Below the pieces are notes generated by a model. It was not told the DNA's origin. It ran no database searches and saw only the letters and a list, made by a program, of their open reading frames with translations. Shown one piece after another: positions 15,161 to 20,489 of a stretch of 64,000 nucleotides of DNA. The position numbers and the translations under genes are program-made. This DNA comes from Ideonella sp. Its GTDB lineage: Bacteria > Pseudomonadota > Gammaproteobacteria > Burkholderiales > Burkholderiaceae_C. The stretch covers positions 1,054,001 to 1,118,000 of the forward strand of contig JABTUC010000001.1 in the NCBI GenBank assembly GCA_015075545.1. The letters run 5' to 3'. The stretch's first letter is position 1; each line of letters begins with the position of its first letter.

Positions 15161-15454
15161 TCAAGCCGCCCTGCTCGCCGCGAACACCAGACGCAGACCC
15201 TTGCCGCGGCTCAGGTAGTAGTCGCCCTGCGGGCTGATGACGACCGCGCGGTGTGCCGCAGGATCGCTGAAGTATTGCCAGCCATGGCCCGGTTCGCCCT
15301 GGGCCGAGCTGTGCGCCACCTCGCGCATGCCGTGGTCGTTGGCCACTGCGTGTCGTGCACCGCGTTCGCCGGGCGAGTGGTCGCCGGCGAGCACGGGGCT
15401 GCCGACGAGGGCCGCGAGCATTCCGAGTGAAGCAAACAGGGTGGTCGATCGCAT
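15161..15454 (-). CDS. Small secreted protein of unknown function
   Basis: A 97-residue protein with a clear signal peptide (residues 1-23, cleavage after VLA-GD), so it is exported to the periplasm. The mature 74 residues are rich in His, Ser and Gly, with a conserved-looking tail (GDYYLSRGKGLRLVF). AGGAAGGAG sits just upstream of ATG 15454. I do not recognise the family. About 85 bases upstream lies the first of three identical dyad operators (15520-15556), which places this gene in the same regulon as yceI, cytochrome b561 and the two-component system. Confidence 0.7.
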   Translation of the reverse strand: MRSTTLFASLGMLAALVGSPVLAGDHSPGERGARHAVANDHGMREVAHSSAQGEPGHGWQYFSDPAAHRAVVISPQGDYYLSRGKGLRLVFAASRAA

Positions 15455-15519
15455 GATGAACTCCTTCCTGGACGGGTGCAGTCGAAGCTGACTGTGGTGG
15501 CACTGTGCGCCGGATGCAT

Positions 15520-15556
15520 TGAACCGGTGCTGAACGGCGTGTTCACCGATCGTTCA
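15520..15556. promoter_or_regulatory. Dyad operator copy 1 (TGAAC/GTTCA tetrad)
   Basis: Pattern TGAAC-N6-TGAAC-N5-GTTCA-N6-GTTCA with half-sites starting at 15520, 15531, 15541 and 15552, perfectly symmetric about 15538. The 11-base repeat within each arm suits tandem binding of an OmpR/PhoB-type regulator. It is upstream of the small secreted protein gene (start 15454). Two more copies with identical spacing lie at 16243 and 18036. Confidence 0.75.
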
Positions 15557-15574
15557 GGTAGACGCCGCCTCCTC

Positions 15575-16150
15575 CTACTGCTTGAAGGCTTCGATCGTGG
15601 CGGTGATGTGCACGGTCTTGGGCATGCCCTTGTCGACCAGATAGTTCATGCCCCACTGGGTGCGGTCGAGCACGGCTTCGAAGTCCCCGCCACAGGCCTC
15701 GGCCTTCGCGCGCTGATTGGCGTAGCAGGTGAACTGCCGGGCCTTCAGCGTCAGCGGATGCGTCTGCCCCAGCAGGGTGAGCCGGCCGGGCACCTCGACC
15801 AGACGATCGCCGTCGAACACCAGGCGGTCCGAGACGAAGCGCATCGTCGGGTGCCGGGCGGCATCGAACAGGTCGCCCGACAGCAGGTGCTTGTCGAAGC
15901 CCTTGGAGCCGCTGTACACGCTGCCGATCTGGACGGTCATGTCGACGGCGCCGGTGCGCGCCTGCTTGTCGAAGCTCACGCTGCCCGACACCTCGTCGAA
16001 GCGCGCGCGGTTGATCGAGGCGCCGTTGTGGTCGATCGCGAAGGTCGCGTAGGTGTGGTCGTCGTCGATCTTGTAGGTGGCGCTCTGGGCCTGGGCGGCC
16101 ACGTGGCCGAAAGCCGCCAGCGCGATCAGGCAGGCGATGGAGTTGTTCAT
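15575..16150 (-). CDS. yceI: YceI family periplasmic lipid-binding protein
   Basis: A 191-residue periplasmic protein of the YceI lipocalin-like family that binds polyisoprenoid or quinone-type lipids. Residues 1-22 form a signal peptide (AAQAQS cleavage). The mature part starts with the typical YKIDDDHTYATFAIDHNG and includes the FDAARHPTMRFVSDR motif. In E. coli YceI is encoded next to a cytochrome b561, and here it sits three genes from one. Copy 2 of the dyad operator lies 93-129 bases upstream. The separate upstream position of the operator suggests yceI can be transcribed independently of the cytochrome operon. Confidence 0.92.
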   Translation of the reverse strand: MNNSIACLIALAAFGHVAAQAQSATYKIDDDHTYATFAIDHNGASINRARFDEVSGSVSFDKQARTGAVDMTVQIGSVYSGSKGFDKHLLSGDLFDAARHPTMRFVSDRLVFDGDRLVEVPGRLTLLGQTHPLTLKARQFTCYANQRAKAEACGGDFEAVLDRTQWGMNYLVDKGMPKTVHITATIEAFKQ

Positions 16151-16242
16151 CCGTGTCCTCTTCGGTTGATGTCGAATCGCCGCGCCAGGCCCGAGCCATC
16201 CGGGCCTGCGCGGGCAGTGAGCGCACTGTGGGCCGCAGGCGC

Positions 16243-16279
16243 TGAACCATCGTTGAACGGCTCGTTCACCTGCCGTTCA
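16243..16279. promoter_or_regulatory. Dyad operator copy 2 (TGAAC/GTTCA tetrad)
   Basis: Half-sites TGAAC at 16243 and 16254 and GTTCA at 16264 and 16275 have the same 11-10-11 start spacing as copies 1 and 3. It lies upstream of yceI and overlaps the last codons of the degraded ApbE remnant. Confidence 0.75.
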
Positions 16280-16897
16280 TGTCGTGGGCTGCTCTGCGGC
16301 CGCGCCGCGGCGCGCGGCGGCGTTGCCGAAGCGTCCCAGCCCCGCCTCCACCAGCGCATCGCCGCGGCGCAGCAGCCACAGCGCTTCGAGCCCCCTGCGC
16401 TGCGCCATGGCCAGGCCATCGCCCGGCCCGGCCACCAGCAGCGCGGTGGCCCAGGCGTCGGCATGCATGCAGCTCTCGGCCAGCACGCTGACCGATGCCA
16501 CCGCGTTGTTCACCGGCGCGGCGCGGCGAGCGTCCATCGTGTGCGCCAGGCGCGCTTCGCAGCCGGCGTCGATCAGCGCGTCGGCCAGATCGGCGGTGAC
16601 CTTGAGCGTGCGCCCGGCGCCGACGCTGGCCCCGGTCACGCCCGCCAGGCGCTAGGCATCGCCCGCCGACAGCCGGTTCCAGTCGGACAGGTTGCGGTAG
16701 TACTTGGCCTTGCCGCCGGCGACCCACAGCGTGCCGGCGTAGGCGCCCTTGGCATCGGTGAGGTACACGGCGAGGTAGGCACCGTCGCCGCCGTAGTTCT
16801 TGAGCTGGACGGCGAGCGAGACGGGGCGGCTGTGCGAAGCGATGGGAAACGCCAGCGCGCATGCGGCGGCGACACTGCCGAGCAGTGGTCTGGACAT
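16277..16897 (-). pseudogene. DUF2271-ApbE chimera with in-frame stop
   Basis: Starting at ATG 16897 (AGGAG upstream), the frame encodes a signal peptide and the N-terminal part of a DUF2271 periplasmic protein (QLKNYGGDGAYLAVYLTD, WNRLSAGDA). A TAG stops it at 16652-16654. The same frame continues beyond the stop with DUF2271-like sequence (GVTGASVGAGRTLKVTADL, DALIDAG). It then switches to the C-terminal half of an FAD:protein FMN transferase, ApbE (LAHTMDARRAAPVNNAVAS, AESCMHADAWATALL). ApbE's N-terminal flavin-binding half is absent. I infer an internal deletion that fused two genes of a PepSY/DUF2271/ApbE operon, plus a nonsense mutation. Only the first 81 residues would be made. Confidence 0.75.
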
Positions 16898-16916
16898 GGT
16901 GGATCTCCTGTCGGGG

Positions 16917-17309
16917 CTATTCGATCTGCCCGCGCGGGGCGGTGCCCGGGGTGAACACCCGGGCGGCGGCGCCTTGCGACGCGGGCGGCGCGGCACTGCC
17001 GGGACGCTGTTGATGCGCTCGATCGCGCGCGCGCTCGCGGCGCTTGATCTTCACGACCGCGAGCGTCTCGGGATCGAGCTTGGCCTTGAACTCGCGGCCA
17101 TCGGCGTCCCTGCCACGGATCTCGTAGCAGCCGTCGTCGATCTTCAGGCGCTCGACCTGCCACCCTCGCTGGGCCGCCATCTGGCGCGCGGCCTCGCGCG
17201 ATTGCCAGCGCTGCACGGGCACGTCGCAGTCGTCGTCGGCCAGCGCGGGCATTGCGGTCAACGACAGCGCGAACGCGCAGCAGGCAAGGGATGCTCGGGT
17301 CTTGATCAT
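16917..17309 (-). CDS. Secreted PepSY-domain protein
   Basis: A 130-residue periplasmic protein with a signal peptide (1-25, PALA-DD) and one PepSY domain (about 38-93: SREAARQMAAQRGWQVERL ... GREFKAKLDPETLAVVKI). A proline/alanine-rich tail of about 35 residues follows. In related operons, PepSY proteins accompany cytochrome b561 and DUF2271 or flavin-carrying proteins. It lies 19 bases upstream of the DUF2271 chimera and 68 bases downstream of the cytochrome b561 gene, so the three form one leftward operon served by operator copy 3. Confidence 0.85.
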   Translation of the reverse strand: MIKTRASLACCAFALSLTAMPALADDDCDVPVQRWQSREAARQMAAQRGWQVERLKIDDGCYEIRGRDADGREFKAKLDPETLAVVKIKRRERARDRAHQQRPGSAAPPASQGAAARVFTPGTAPRGQIE

Positions 17310-17377
17310 GGAACTGTCCTTTCGATCGTTTGACTGGCGCCAACGGCGCGCAGCGACTGAAGACGGCATCTGCGCCG

Positions 17378-17965
17378 TCAAAGCTCGCGCCTGCCTGGCG
17401 CGGGGAGCGAACGGGCCGGCAGCGCGGCGGTGAAGCGCGCGGGCCACATCCGCCGCAAGGTGTCGTCGCGCATGAAGTGGTGGTGAAACAGCGCGGCGGC
17501 GGCGTGCAGGCCGATCAGCCAGTAACCGAACTCGCCGATGAATTCGTGGATGTCCTCGAGGCTCTTGCCCAGCGCCCTGTCGGGCCCGATCAGCGCGGGT
17601 AGCTGCCAGCCGAAGAACACGACCTCCTTGCCCTGCGCACCGAGCGCGAGCCAGCCCAGCACAGGCATCGTCAGCAGCAGCGCATAGAGCGCGCCGTCCA
17701 TCGCCAGCGCGAAGCGGTGCTGCCAGGCCGGCGGCGCGGGGGTGATGGGCGGTGCCTGCAGCACCAGGCGCAGCGGCAGACGAATCAGCACCAGCCCGAA
17801 CACGCCCAGGCCCAGCATGAAGTGCCACAGCTTCATCAACTCGCGCGCATCGCTCCCCTTGGGATACAGGCCGCGCAGTTCGATCGACGCATAGACGGCG
17901 ATCAACAGCAGCAGGGTCAGCCAGTGCATGCCGATCAGCAGCGGGTGGAAGCGATTCGCGGTCAT
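17378..17965 (-). CDS. Cytochrome b561
   Basis: A 195-residue inner-membrane dihaem cytochrome b561 of the bacterial CybB type. Four hydrophobic helices carry the expected histidines: FHPLLIGMHWLTLLLL (helix 1), LWHFMLGLGVFGLVL (helix 2), and HEFIGEFGYWLIGLHAAAALFHHH (helices 3-4). It moves electrons between the quinone pool and periplasmic acceptors. ATG 17965 is chosen because it directly precedes the first helix. It is the first gene of the leftward operon with PepSY and DUF2271, and shares an intergenic region and operator with the divergent PepSY/two-component operon. Confidence 0.9.
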   Translation of the reverse strand: MTANRFHPLLIGMHWLTLLLLIAVYASIELRGLYPKGSDARELMKLWHFMLGLGVFGLVLIRLPLRLVLQAPPITPAPPAWQHRFALAMDGALYALLLTMPVLGWLALGAQGKEVVFFGWQLPALIGPDRALGKSLEDIHEFIGEFGYWLIGLHAAAALFHHHFMRDDTLRRMWPARFTAALPARSLPAPGRREL

Positions 17966-18035
17966 GGGCAGGGCTCGTATCGTGTCAGCGCTCCGGCCTC
18001 GTGCCGGGCTCGCGGGCATTCTGGAAAGCCGGCCA

Positions 18036-18072
18036 TGAACCGAGGCTGAAGGCTGCGTTCAGGCGCCGTTCA
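18036..18072. promoter_or_regulatory. Dyad operator copy 3 (TGAAC/GTTCA tetrad)
   Basis: Half-sites TGAAC (18036), TGAAG (18047, one mismatch), GTTCA (18057) and GTTCA (18068) show the same 11-10-11 spacing as the other two copies. It sits between the divergent cytochrome b561 gene (starts 17965) and the PepSY/response-regulator operon (starts 18090), so it could control both and give autoregulation. Confidence 0.75.
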
Positions 18073-18089
18073 TCGCTGCACGCGCAAGA

Positions 18090-18458
18090 ATGCCGCCCAT
18101 GACACCGCGCGCACCCATTCGTCGCCGCCTTGCCGCGCTGGGCGTGGGCCTGGCCGCGCTCGCTATCGGCGCCCCGCTGCACGCCGACGAGCGCGACCAC
18201 GAACTGGCGCGCCAGGCGCTCGAGCAAGGCCAGGTGCTGCCGCTGCGCACCGTGCTCGACAAGGTGGAGCGCGAGCAACCGGGTCAGGTGATGAAGATCG
18301 AGTTCGAGCGCGACGACGGGCGCTTCGTGTACAAGATCCGTCTGCTGCAGAAGGACGGGCGCATGGTCAGGCTCAAGGTCGATGCCGTCGATGGCCGCGT
18401 ACTGAGCGTGCAACGCAGAGAACACGAGAGCGGGTCCGATGCGCATCCTCGTCGTTGA
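18090..18458 (+). CDS. PepSY-domain protein upstream of two-component system
   Basis: A 122-residue (or 119 from ATG 18099) exported protein. An N-terminal hydrophobic stretch (LAALGVGLAALAIGAPLHA) is followed by one PepSY domain (LPLRTVLDKVEREQPGQV ... VRLKVDAVDGRVLSVQRRE). Its last 20 bases overlap the response-regulator gene, so expression is coupled. Periplasmic PepSY proteins next to a sensor kinase are often proposed to act as input modulators; that is inference here. No clear Shine-Dalgarno was seen. Operator copy 3 ends 17 bases upstream. Confidence 0.85.
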   Translation: MPPMTPRAPIRRRLAALGVGLAALAIGAPLHADERDHELARQALEQGQVLPLRTVLDKVEREQPGQVMKIEFERDDGRFVYKIRLLQKDGRMVRLKVDAVDGRVLSVQRREHESGSDAHPRR

Positions 18459-19110
18459 GGACGAGCCAGCGCTCGGCGCACAACTGGTGCGGGCCATTGG
18501 CGCCGCGGGCCACACGGTGGACAGCGCCGCCGACGGCGCCACCGCCCACTACCTGGGCGAGGTGGAGGATTTCGACGCCGTGGTGCTCGACCTGGGTTTG
18601 CCCAAACTCGACGGCCTGTCGGTGCTGCGGCGCTGGCGGGCCGCCGGGCGCAACATGCCGGTGCTGATCCTCACCGCGCGTGGCGCCTGGCACGAGAAAG
18701 TCGCTGGCATCGACGCCGGCGCCGACGACTACCTCGCCAAGCCCTTCCACATGGAGGAGTTGCTCGCACGCCTGCGCGCGCTGCTGCGCCGCGGCGGCGA
18801 GCACGCCAGCGCGCGCTGGCAGTGCGGGCCGATCGTGCTCGACACCCGCCACGCGCGCGTGCAGGTCGATGGCCAGCCGCTGCAACTCACCAGCCACGAG
18901 TACAAGCTGCTGGCGCAACTGATGCAGCGCAAGGGCGAGGTGATGTCGCGCACCGAGCTGTCGGAGCACCTGTACGCCCACGACAGCGACCGCGACTCCA
19001 ACACCATCGAGGTCTTCGTCGGCCGCCTGCGGCGCAAGCTGCCGCCGGGCAGCATCGAGACGGTGCGCGGCATGGGCTACCGGCTGGTCGACCTGGACGC
19101 GGGCGCTTGA
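18439..19110 (+). CDS. OmpR/PhoB-family response regulator
   Basis: A 223-residue two-component regulator. The receiver domain shows the acidic pair EDE (residues 7-9), the phosphorylated Asp in VVLDLGLPKLDG near 51, the Thr in LILTARG near 79 and Lys in YLAKPF near 101. The C-terminal winged helix (about 130-220) has the family ending VRGMGYRL. It resembles the QseB/PmrA/TctD group. It is placed between PepSY and histidine-kinase genes, with overlaps on both sides. The three TGAAC/GTTCA dyads around it, with 11-base repeats, are its likely binding sites. Confidence 0.92.
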   Translation: MRILVVEDEPALGAQLVRAIGAAGHTVDSAADGATAHYLGEVEDFDAVVLDLGLPKLDGLSVLRRWRAAGRNMPVLILTARGAWHEKVAGIDAGADDYLAKPFHMEELLARLRALLRRGGEHASARWQCGPIVLDTRHARVQVDGQPLQLTSHEYKLLAQLMQRKGEVMSRTELSEHLYAHDSDRDSNTIEVFVGRLRRKLPPGSIETVRGMGYRLVDLDAGA

Positions 19111-20489
19111 ACGGCGGCTCGCTGCGCCTGCGCCTGCTGGCGGGCACGCTCGCCTGGATGCTGCTGGTCATCGCTGCCGTCGGCTGGGGCCTGCGTGCGC
19201 TGTTCCAGGAGCACGTGACGCAGCAGTTCCAGGCGCAACTGGTGATGCAGCTCGATCACCTGAGTGCCGCCATCGATTGGAAGCCCGGCGGCGGCGTCGC
19301 GATCAGCCCGATGCCCACCGACCCGCGCCTGGACGAACCGCTGTCGGGCCTGTACTGGCAGATCGACCAGCTGGGCGCGGCGCCGGCGGCGGCGGTGGCG
19401 CGCTCGCGCTCGCTGTGGGATCAGGTGCTCGCGCTGCCCGCGCCACCGGCCACCTACCCCGCCAAAGGCCACCGCGTGCTGGCGCTGCACGATACGCAGG
19501 GCCACGCACTGGTGGCCGTGGCGCGCGTGGTGCAGTTGCCCGAGGCCGACGCGCCGCCGCTGCGCCTGGTGGTGGCCGGCGACGAGGCGCTGCTGGCCGA
19601 ACCGCTGCAGCGCTTCACGCGTCTGCTGCTGATTTCGCTGGGCCTGCTGGCGCTGGGCCTGGCGCTGGCCGTGGTGGTGCAACTGCAGCTCGCGATGCGC
19701 CCGCTGGAGCGCCTGCGCAAGCGGCTGGCCGCGGTGCGCAGTGGCGCAGCCACGCAGCTCGAGGGCCGATTCCCGCAGGAGCTGCAGCCGCTGGTGAGCG
19801 AGTTCAACCACGTGCTGCGGGAGAACGCCGACATGGTGCAACGCGCCCGCACCCAGGCAGGCAACCTGGCGCACGCGGTGCACACGCCGCTGTCGATCAT
19901 GGCCAACGCGGCGGCGCAGGAGCAAGGCACGCTGGCGCAACTCGTGCAGGAGCAGGTGACGCGCGCGCGCCGCCAGGTGGATTACCACCTCGCCCGCGCG
20001 CGCGCCGCCGCCGCGGTGCGCGCCACCGGCCTGGCCACCCCGGTGCTGCCGCCGCTGCGCGCGCTGCTGCGCACCATGCAGCGCCTGCATGCGCAACGCC
20101 ATCTCGAGTTCGAGGTCGCCTCCGAGGCGCACGACGCAGCCTTTCGCGGCGAGGAGCAGGACCTGTACGAACTGCTGGGCAACCTGATCGACAACGCGGG
20201 CAAGTGGGCGCGCAGCCGCGTCGTGGTCGACGTGCGGCAGCACGACGGCGAGCTGTGCTTCACCGTCGACGACGACGGCCCCGGCATCGCTGCCGAACAG
20301 CGCGAGCGCATGTTCGAGCGCGGCGTGCAGCTCGACGAGCGGCGCCCCGGCTCGGGCCTCGGACTCGACATCGTGCGCACGCTGGCCCAGGCGTACGGCG
20401 GCAGCGTGCAGGCGCAAGACTCCCCGCTCGGCGGCGCCCGCCTGCGCCTGTGCCTGCCGTCGGCCGGCGCGCAGGGGGCCGGCTCCTGA
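19107..20489 (+). CDS. Sensor histidine kinase
   Basis: A 460-residue membrane kinase starting at a TTG that overlaps the regulator stop (TTGA). TM1 is at about 9-30 and TM2 at about 170-195, enclosing a periplasmic sensor domain of some 140 residues. A HAMP-like linker and the H-box NLAHAVHTPLSIM follow near residue 255, of the PhoQ/QseC LAHSLKTPL style. The ATPase domain has N (GNLIDNAGKWA), G1 (DDDGPGI) and G2 (GSGLGLDIV) boxes. It presumably phosphorylates the coupled regulator in response to a periplasmic signal, perhaps redox or hypochlorite-type stress given the YceI/b561 targets; the signal is not shown. Confidence 0.92.
   Translation: MNGGSLRLRLLAGTLAWMLLVIAAVGWGLRALFQEHVTQQFQAQLVMQLDHLSAAIDWKPGGGVAISPMPTDPRLDEPLSGLYWQIDQLGAAPAAAVARSRSLWDQVLALPAPPATYPAKGHRVLALHDTQGHALVAVARVVQLPEADAPPLRLVVAGDEALLAEPLQRFTRLLLISLGLLALGLALAVVVQLQLAMRPLERLRKRLAAVRSGAATQLEGRFPQELQPLVSEFNHVLRENADMVQRARTQAGNLAHAVHTPLSIMANAAAQEQGTLAQLVQEQVTRARRQVDYHLARARAAAAVRATGLATPVLPPLRALLRTMQRLHAQRHLEFEVASEAHDAAFRGEEQDLYELLGNLIDNAGKWARSRVVVDVRQHDGELCFTVDDDGPGIAAEQRERMFERGVQLDERRPGSGLGLDIVRTLAQAYGGSVQAQDSPLGGARLRLCLPSAGAQGAGS

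Follow-up and report, generated by a model that had tools for sequence, protein, structure and literature searches.

A mirror-image tandem motif as the candidate operator of a PepSY, response regulator and SK1 kinase system in Ideonella sp.

In the 64,000-nucleotide stretch of Ideonella sp. DNA analysed here (contig JABTUC010000001.1 of assembly GCA_015075545.1, positions 1,054,001 to 1,118,000; the whole stretch is called the window), the 37-base dyad TGAAC-N6-TGAAC-N5-GTTCA-N6-GTTCA stands beside the genes for a PepSY protein, an OmpR-family response regulator (RR) and a sensor kinase of the SK1 type. We call this dyad the mirror tetrad: it is made of two tandem repeats in mirror image. The locus raises the question of whether the tetrad is the operator of the adjacent two-component system and, if so, what its mirror half means. 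We are fairly confident that the tetrad is indeed the operator of the PepSY-RR-SK1 system, on which two mirror-image tandem dimers of the RR would sit and activate transcription in the class II manner.

Copies of the mirror tetrad

When the window was scanned with up to three mismatches, three tetrads were found, at 15520, 16243 and 18036 (Table 1), with zero, zero and one mismatch, respectively. Each has the half-site start spacing 11-10-11, and 11 of the 12 half-sites are perfect, the exception being TGAAG at 18047. The same search found no tetrad in 100 dinucleotide shuffles of the window. In the whole genome (3,691,677 bases in 13 contigs, 85% complete), the three window tetrads were the only matches at this threshold, and a reversed-pattern control gave none. 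All three lie within 2.6 kb, beside the regulator gene. The tetrad at 15520 is 65 bases from the ATG of a small secreted protein gene and that at 16243 is 92 bases from the ATG of yceI; the tetrad at 18036 lies between two divergent genes, 70 bases from the cytochrome b561 ATG (17965) and 26 bases from the PepSY ATG (18099). The first-pass annotation had reported the tetrads at these positions, with this spacing and one imperfect half-site, each upstream of a gene, and the window and genome scans agree. It had also asked whether the pattern might be a common genome-wide repeat. There are just three copies in the 3.69-Mb genome, and a hairpin, terminator or dispersed repeat was rejected on this ground.

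The bare half-operator, GTTCA-N6-GTTCA, occurs at eight places in the genome, five of them inside tetrads; the reversed control occurs at two. Inspection by eye found no -10-like hexamer at an offset of 12-13 bases at the three places outside tetrads, one of which (7147 in the window) falls within an open frame. These three look like chance occurrences, and a genome-wide regulon of isolated half-operators was rejected.

Promoter phase and the mirror half

Where does the tetrad stand relative to the promoters? The offset of -10-like hexamers was counted after the last half-site. As shown in Table 1, such hexamers are placed 12-13 bases beyond the gene-facing ends of the window tetrads, an offset at which each gene-facing tandem would take the -35 position of a class II promoter. 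The site at 18036, the regulator's own, has a hexamer on each side and looks bidirectional. In contrast, the sites at 15520 and 16243 look one-way, with no -10-like hexamer at offsets 11-13 on their far sides, yet they keep the mirror half. The first-pass annotation had considered the mirror unusual. At 18036 it is matched by back-to-back promoters, but it persists at the promoters that look one-way.

The same phase was counted in relatives, at sites that were chosen by tetrad match, so that these counts and those for one-way sites below are biased. At sites of the family, a hexamer with at least 4/6 bases of TATAAT stands at offset 12 in 30/42 on the RR side (the next highest count is 7, at offset 14) and in 26/42 on the divergent side (next highest, 1). 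At 30 further sites, whose RR is at least 63% identical, offset-12 hexamers numbered 13 on the RR side and 11 on the divergent side. For one-way sites, including the window copies, a looser rule was used (at least 3/6 bases, with A2 and T6). A proximal hexamer was found at 9/9 small-protein sites and 2/2 YceI sites, with no distal hexamer at any of them (0/9 and 0/2). At b561 sites the proximal and distal counts were 6/6 and 4/6, and at PepSY_2 sites 9/10 and 5/10.

Three tests are free of this selection: the anchoring of orthologue promoters, the rule of 8/10 bases in each half and the small-protein upstream test. For the first two, 46 full-length RR orthologues (at least 63% identity, 44 genomes; the partial one in G055 was excluded) were taken from a protein search and the upstream kilobase was examined. 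Of these promoters, 44 could be anchored on the gene-proximal tandem and the -10 hexamer. The mirror tandem was found exactly at -21, with at least 8/10 bases, in 38 of the 44, and among 18 other offsets just the 11-base echo at -32 reached this level (5/44). By the second test, 39 of the 46 orthologues carry both halves within 1 kb upstream, compared with 0/9200 mononucleotide-shuffled regions. Thus, the tetrad is not absent upstream of the orthologues, which the first-pass annotation had named as a way in which its proposal could fail. For the third test, a protein search found matches to the small protein in 13 of the 200 genomes of the family (own genome included), and 13 of the 15 matches were used, the second matches in G004 and G196 being left out. 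A whole mirror (distal tandem at least 8/10, proximal at least 7/10) lies upstream of 10/13, own included, and all ten of these genomes also carry an RR that is at least 63% identical. Three orthologues lack the whole mirror, in G015 (no RR at the cut-off), G091 (RR of 49% only) and G193 (RR present); from the first two cases only, the small-protein tetrad may fade once the regulator is gone. As far as the sequence tells, sites without a visible divergent promoter still keep the mirror half.

These results bear on a different explanation, that the mirror consists of two independent, abutting class II boxes, one for each divergent promoter, the one-way copies being fossils of divergent promoters or copies of the RR promoter; neither a tetramer nor cooperation would then be required. 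RR-linked sites with phased hexamers on both sides fit this idea, and so do loci L055, L059 and L070, where the proximal tandem is present but the distal one is not intact. However, the gap between the tandems is fixed at one value in those 38 of 44 orthologue promoters, small-protein sites across genera keep a distal tandem although none of the nine has a distal hexamer, and at the small-protein site L251 the distal tandem (10/10) is better kept than the proximal one (7/10). On balance, we regard independent boxes as unlikely. Another arrangement would take the inner inverted pair, TGAAC-N5-GTTCA, as the core for a symmetric dimer such as AgrR or CopR, with the outer pentamers as accessory sites. 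AgrR has been reported on an inverted repeat with in-phase direct repeats upstream and/or downstream, all on one face of the helix (PMC7380067). However, where one half has decayed, at the same three loci, the survivor is the tandem beside the -10 hexamer, and the fifth base of the inner distal half-site is G instead of C in 66% of the family promoters. An inner-pair core thus seems improbable to us.

Would the RR activate or repress from this position? A site so close to the presumed transcription start suits repression too. In contrast, the proximal pentamer falls at the -35 position (a separate -35 was outside the search), BqsR, with the same 11-base tandem over the -35, is an activator (PMC4682146), and positive autoregulation has been suggested for dbfQRS (PMC12714742). 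We see a slim chance of repression and prefer class II activation.

Distribution of the tetrad with the regulator

If the RR binds the tetrad, the two should occur together. In the family sample of 200 genomes, own included, a tetrad was counted anywhere in the genome with up to two mismatches. It was present in 49/200, and the reversed control was zero in every genome. An RR match at E of 1e-55 or below was found in 66/200, and one of at least 63% identity in 45/200 (one partial, G055). As anticipated by the first-pass annotation, the tetrad tracks the regulator: 40 genomes have both, 5 the RR only, 9 the tetrad only and 146 neither. In other words, the tetrad is present in 40/45 genomes with this RR and in 9/155 without it (Fisher p of about 9e-28, a value that overstates independence, the genomes being related). 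Of the RR-only genomes (G058, G151, G170, G179 and G186), four have a three-mismatch tetrad upstream of the PepSY and RR genes (L052, L062, L063 and L067), while in G151 (L070) the proximal tandem alone remains. Among the tetrad-only genomes, G020, G148, G177, G190 and G192 have a nearby RR of 41-44% identity, G079 has one of 44%, G014 has a PepSY_2 gene at the tetrad, and at the tetrads of G064 and G150 a related gene was not found. G107, G117, G167 and G038 have no tetrad with up to two mismatches within 1 kb upstream of the RR, though a tetrad elsewhere in the genome counts.

A separate observation concerns PepSY_2 genes. At L007, L014 and L022 (G004, G196 and G014, from three genera) the 37-base tetrad upstream of this gene is identical, spacers included, which reflects either a recent transfer or an extra constraint.

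The strict pattern is seldom seen beyond the family: scans with up to one mismatch found it in 3/274 genomes of the class and 17/299 of the phylum, own genome in both. In the phylum scan, several one-mismatch matches, L228-L234 from family f203, represent another conserved sequence, whose inner half-sites are, for instance, CGAAC (as in TGAAC-N6-CGAAC) or GGAAC. An exact scan of species genomes gave at least 118 stretches, all of which were used (80 are named). In all, 167 of 178 distinct sites were classed, the others having no acceptable open reading frame (ORF) in their flanks; divergent ORFs were chosen by a rule based on GC at third codon positions. Among the matches listed, to which all site and locus counts up to the ORF families below are limited, 64 of the 108 classed distinct exact-scan sites are followed by an RR match within 1.3 kb. 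The RR-linked loci belong to Alpha-, Beta- and Gammaproteobacteria, Acidobacteria, Vicinamibacteria, one Gemmatimonadota and one Eisenbacteria genome. From the number of copies and from this recurrence beside related regulators in distant groups, the tetrad is very probably the control site of the sensor-regulator system beside it.

Does the operator belong to the regulator or to the kinase? At loci with an RR of at least 63%, SGxYWQ-like motifs were found in 23/26 and 21/24 kinases and RSRSLWD-like motifs in 24/26 and 24/24 (two locus sets). In a group with an RR of 55-63% identity, where 12 of the 14 members with a name are Acidobacteria by title, the kinases had SK1 motifs in 0/19 loci. At most loci of this group, 23-45 bases separate the tetrad from the start of the RR downstream, and no PepSY gene intervenes. 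At its 23 sites, RR-side hexamers at offsets 11, 12 and 13 numbered 5, 6 and 9, and 10 sites had one at offset 12 on the other side. Since this Acidobacteria-rich group has tetrads and RRs together with kinases that lack SK1 motifs, the operator seems to follow the regulator branch, not the sensor. In paralogues of 50-54% identity (L082 and L091-L094), the outer half-sites are TAAAC/GTTTA and the inner ones TGAAG with GTTCA or ATTCA, the mirror being unchanged. The RRs at these loci read DVLIGRIRRK, and most others EVF..RLR.K. Two exceptions, L029 and L113, combine DVLMARIRRK with TGAAC; covariation of the recognition helix was rejected as proof of binding, the link being loose.

The genes at tetrads in relatives are largely redox genes. 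Among 104 of the 106 divergent ORFs at RR-linked sites (L076 and L158 were left out), the families found, which overlap, were DUF1924 (29), PepSY_2 (18), methyltransferase (11), EptA_B_N (10), cytochrome b561 (9), PepSY (9), ABC (5), ferric-reductase-like (5) and cytochrome c (5). One divergent DUF1924 protein matches PDB 1dw0-1dw3; we take 1dw0 to be SHP (sphaeroides haem protein). Among 83 of the 84 ORFs at sites without an RR (the duplicate L192 frame was left out), PepSY_2 (14), alpha/beta hydrolase (6), DUF1924 (6), HSP20 (5), PepSY (4), ECF sigma (3) and YceI (1) were found; the HSP20-family proteins could possibly belong to a wider regulon.

Some tetrads have no close RR. Exact copies stand beside an alpha/beta-hydrolase-like gene at L103, L123 and L173 (Rhizobiales, Rhizobium and Agrobacterium) and possibly belong to another system. 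At L108, L109, L156, L170 and L172 (Anaerocolumna, Lachnospiraceae, Blautia and a magnetococcal metagenome-assembled genome), the exact tetrads are long near-perfect palindromes with no related RR in the locus; these are probably another kind of element. Such palindromes among the exact matches, and the ability of dyads to form hairpins, are what could be said for a tetrad bound by some other factor (a repressor or nucleoid protein) or acting as an RNA hairpin or terminator. However, the N6 spacers of the window tetrads lack mirror complementarity and the copies are as few as three; moreover, the pattern tracks one regulator and keeps a fixed phase to -10-like hexamers. We consider the chance of this explanation close to negligible.

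Several results weigh against the tetrad as the dedicated operator of this RR. The CACAGT hexamers of both one-way window sites are weak (3/6). G193 has the RR, yet its small-protein orthologue lacks the tetrad. Seven of the 46 orthologue promoters fail the rule of 8/10 in each half: at L055, L059 and L070 the distal tandem is degraded while the proximal one is kept, at L062 and L067 the distal tandem has 7/10, and at L061 and L078 no proximal tandem lies in the stretch, which at L078 stops at the contig end. The mirror half is thus, by sequence, not indispensable everywhere. In addition, RRs of 41-45% identity next to genes for EptA-like lipid A transferases have exact or near-exact tetrads (L084, L085, L087-L089, L101, L102, L147 and L218) and might share or contest the sites; this group, called PmrA-like solely on account of EptA, has an offset-12 hexamer in 0/10. 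Finally, 56 of the 167 classed sites (up to two mismatches, among the matches listed) have no RR within 1.3 kb downstream; some of them would be regulon genes and some are unexplained or other palindromes.

Locus, related systems and proposed mechanism

The coordinates are collected in Table 1.

Table 1 Tetrads, -10-like hexamers and genes of the window locus
Feature	Position	Strand	Remarks
Mirror tetrad 1	15520..15556	.	0 mismatches; half-sites at 15520, 15531, 15541 and 15552; for small secreted protein gene (-)
Mirror tetrad 2	16243..16279	.	0 mismatches; upstream of yceI
Mirror tetrad 3	18036..18072	.	1 mismatch; common to cytochrome b561 (-) and PepSY-RR-kinase operon (+)
-10-like CACAGT (3/6)	15502..15507	-	12 bases past gene-facing half-site of tetrad 1
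-10-like CACAGT (3/6)	16225..16230	-	offset 12, tetrad 2
-10-like CAGAAT (4/6), cytochrome b561 promoter	18018..18023	-	offset 12, tetrad 3
-10-like AAGAAT (4/6), PepSY-RR-kinase promoter	18086..18091	+	offset 13, tetrad 3
Small secreted protein, 97 aa, presumed target	15161..15454	-	no match in Pfam or NCBIfam
YceI-family secreted protein (PF04264), presumed target	15575..16150	-	profile match
Remnant frame: C-terminal part of DUF2271 (TGAS motif), then C-terminal part of ApbE	16277..16639	-	ApbE profile positions 206-266
DUF2271, N-terminal part	16652..16897	-	profile match; ended by in-frame TAG
PepSY_2 protein	16920..17312	-	profile match
Cytochrome b561 (PF01292)	17378..17965	-	start 17965 fits promoter
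PepSY protein, presumed SK1-system Orf1	18099..18458	+	Orf1 = PepSY by presumption
OmpR-family RR, presumed binder of all three tetrads	18439..19110	+	receiver Asp51 and winged helix
Sensor kinase, type SK1	19107..20489	+	TTG start overlaps RR stop

The first in-frame ATGs of the PepSY and b561 genes (for b561, 18019) overlap the hexamers at tetrad 3. Translation therefore probably begins at 18099 and 17965. With ATG 18099 just 7 bases past the hexamer, the mRNA of the PepSY gene is probably leaderless. At many tetrad promoters elsewhere (L034, L040, L126, L169, L201 and others), an ATG or the regulator start comes about 6-9 bases past a -10-like hexamer, which suggests that PepSY or regulator mRNAs are leaderless in several groups.

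The RR matches both PF00072 (receiver) and PF00486 (Trans_reg_C) above cut-off and is thus a member of the OmpR/PhoB family. Its best NCBIfam models are PmrA, PhoP, RppA, TctD and QseB, all far below cut-off (PmrA 211.6/330, PhoP 197.6/336, TctD 192.3/337 and QseB 189.1/345 bits). The boxes of enterobacterial PhoP and PmrA are 11-base tandem direct repeats ahead of the -10 and are not known to be mirrored; the window RR differs from these regulators by its scores. The best model for the kinase, PhoQ, is also below cut-off. Its phosphoacceptor box is LAHAVHTPL, which is unusual, the common one being SHELRTPL. The kinase contains SGLYWQ (codons from 19344) and RSRSLWD (from 19401), and the PepSY and RR genes lie directly upstream, so that it has both the motifs and the neighbourhood (a small periplasmic Orf1, here presumably the PepSY protein, and an RR) of SK1.

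The SK1 kinase of SHP operons, with motifs of the SGVYWQ and RSRSLWD kind in its periplasmic domain, was described by Meyer, Kyndt and Cusanovich in 2010, with SHP linkage in 15 of 74 SK1 examples, so that the linkage is not defining, and with a divergent promoter suspected in two Rhodospirillum species (PMC2909971). The window system resembles theirs in the kinase motifs, the small periplasmic accessory gene, the RR and the often divergent redox operon. It differs in that the divergent operon begins with cytochrome b561; the divergent side in relatives has DUF1924 in the 29/104 listed ORFs given above. No DUF1924 (SHP-like) gene was found among the nine window-locus proteins scanned, the remaining genome being outside that search. 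The part of PMC2909971 covered here gives no operator.

In BqsR of Pseudomonas aeruginosa (TTAAG-N6-TTAAG), which is also PepSY-associated, the pentamers have the same 11-base period, the last overlaps the -35, and extra upstream pentamers add to the output (PMC4682146). GTTCA-N6-GTTCA likewise repeats a pentamer with a 6-base spacer and, from the hexamers at offset 12-13, would end at the -35. The tetrad pentamer, however, is TGAAC/GTTCA in mirror image instead of TTAAG in direct repeat; the extra BqsR pentamers have the same 6-base spacing, and a mirror is not mentioned in the part of that paper covered here. AgrR of Cupriavidus metallidurans shares the topology described above, together with autoregulation, and is a type II activator at most promoters tested, but its half-site is ATTACA, its inverted core has a 4-base spacer and its outer repeats are imperfect and not at all operators (PMC7380067); moreover, the decay pattern of the tetrad favours the proximal tandem as core. 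We consider the BqsR and AgrR operators the nearest precedents. DbfQRS of Vibrio cholerae is a PepSY-RR-kinase module that occurs across phyla, like the present one, but its outputs are biofilm and metabolism, its input is membrane integrity, and no binding site is given in the part of the paper covered here (PMC12714742).

In the open-access literature we found neither the written tetrad motif (subscription papers were mostly outside the search, so that this is provisional) nor a PepSY protein, response regulator, cytochrome b561 and YceI together, and the papers listed by a looser search with motif words seem, from their titles and the opening of their abstracts, to be unrelated. The first-pass annotation had not recognised the operator from any described system. 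The operator was not found in print, but the two-component system is not undescribed, since its kinase carries the published SK1 motifs. What is new here, provisionally, is the operator, the kinase type having been known since 2010.

The target genes suggest a role of the regulon in extracytosolic electron transfer. DUF2271 has been reported as a flavinylated domain, and clusters of PepSY-like, DUF2271, DUF4198 and ApbE proteins as extracytosolic electron-transfer systems (PMC8238504). In the window an in-frame TAG interrupts DUF2271 (16277-16897), and its C-terminal part runs straight into the C-terminal part of ApbE. In the relatives L098, L099 and L100, about 3 kb separate the DUF2271 and ApbE parts. 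Therefore, the window frame is a shrunken remnant or an assembly join.

We propose the following mechanism. The SK1 kinase would phosphorylate the RR, and the PepSY protein may gate the kinase, by analogy with DbfQ (PMC12714742); as to the signal, the inputs reported for related systems are iron for BqsS and membrane integrity for DbfS. Each half of the tetrad, two TGAAC/GTTCA pentamers 11 bases apart, would be the site of one head-to-tail RR dimer, and the two dimers would occupy the same DNA face as mirror images of each other. From the gene-nearer tandem, at -35 and 12-13 bases before the -10, phosphorylated RR would act as a class II activator and recruit RNA polymerase. At 18036 it would activate in both directions, towards cytochrome b561 and towards its own operon, and the latter would amount to positive autoregulation. 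At 15520 and 16243 it would activate one way, towards the small secreted protein and yceI, with the distal tandem as the place of a cooperative second dimer. The first-pass annotation had proposed that the RR encoded at 18439 binds all three tetrads, autoregulates and controls a local redox regulon. The rarity of the tetrad, the orthologue promoters, the tracking and the redox genes support this at the level of sequence.

A broader reading is that one OmpR-family branch, spread over Proteobacteria, Acidobacteria and others whatever the kinase, has in the mirror tandem an ancient operator grammar that is separate from others, in which an obligatory tetramer, made of two mirrored tandem dimers on a single DNA face, can activate RNA polymerase towards either or both sides. 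We hold this only tentatively and lean against it; if it is true, regulator and target operons would be fired from one symmetric complex. For this kinase type, which was recognised in 2010 next to SHP cytochromes that bind oxygen, the tetrad offers a precise, testable candidate operator. It would connect the SK1 system with extracytosolic electron transfer linked to flavin, haem and PepSY and may let much of the regulon be read from genomes across phyla. Its unusual symmetric arrangement may also serve in the study of tandem-dimer cooperation and divergent promoters in the OmpR family.

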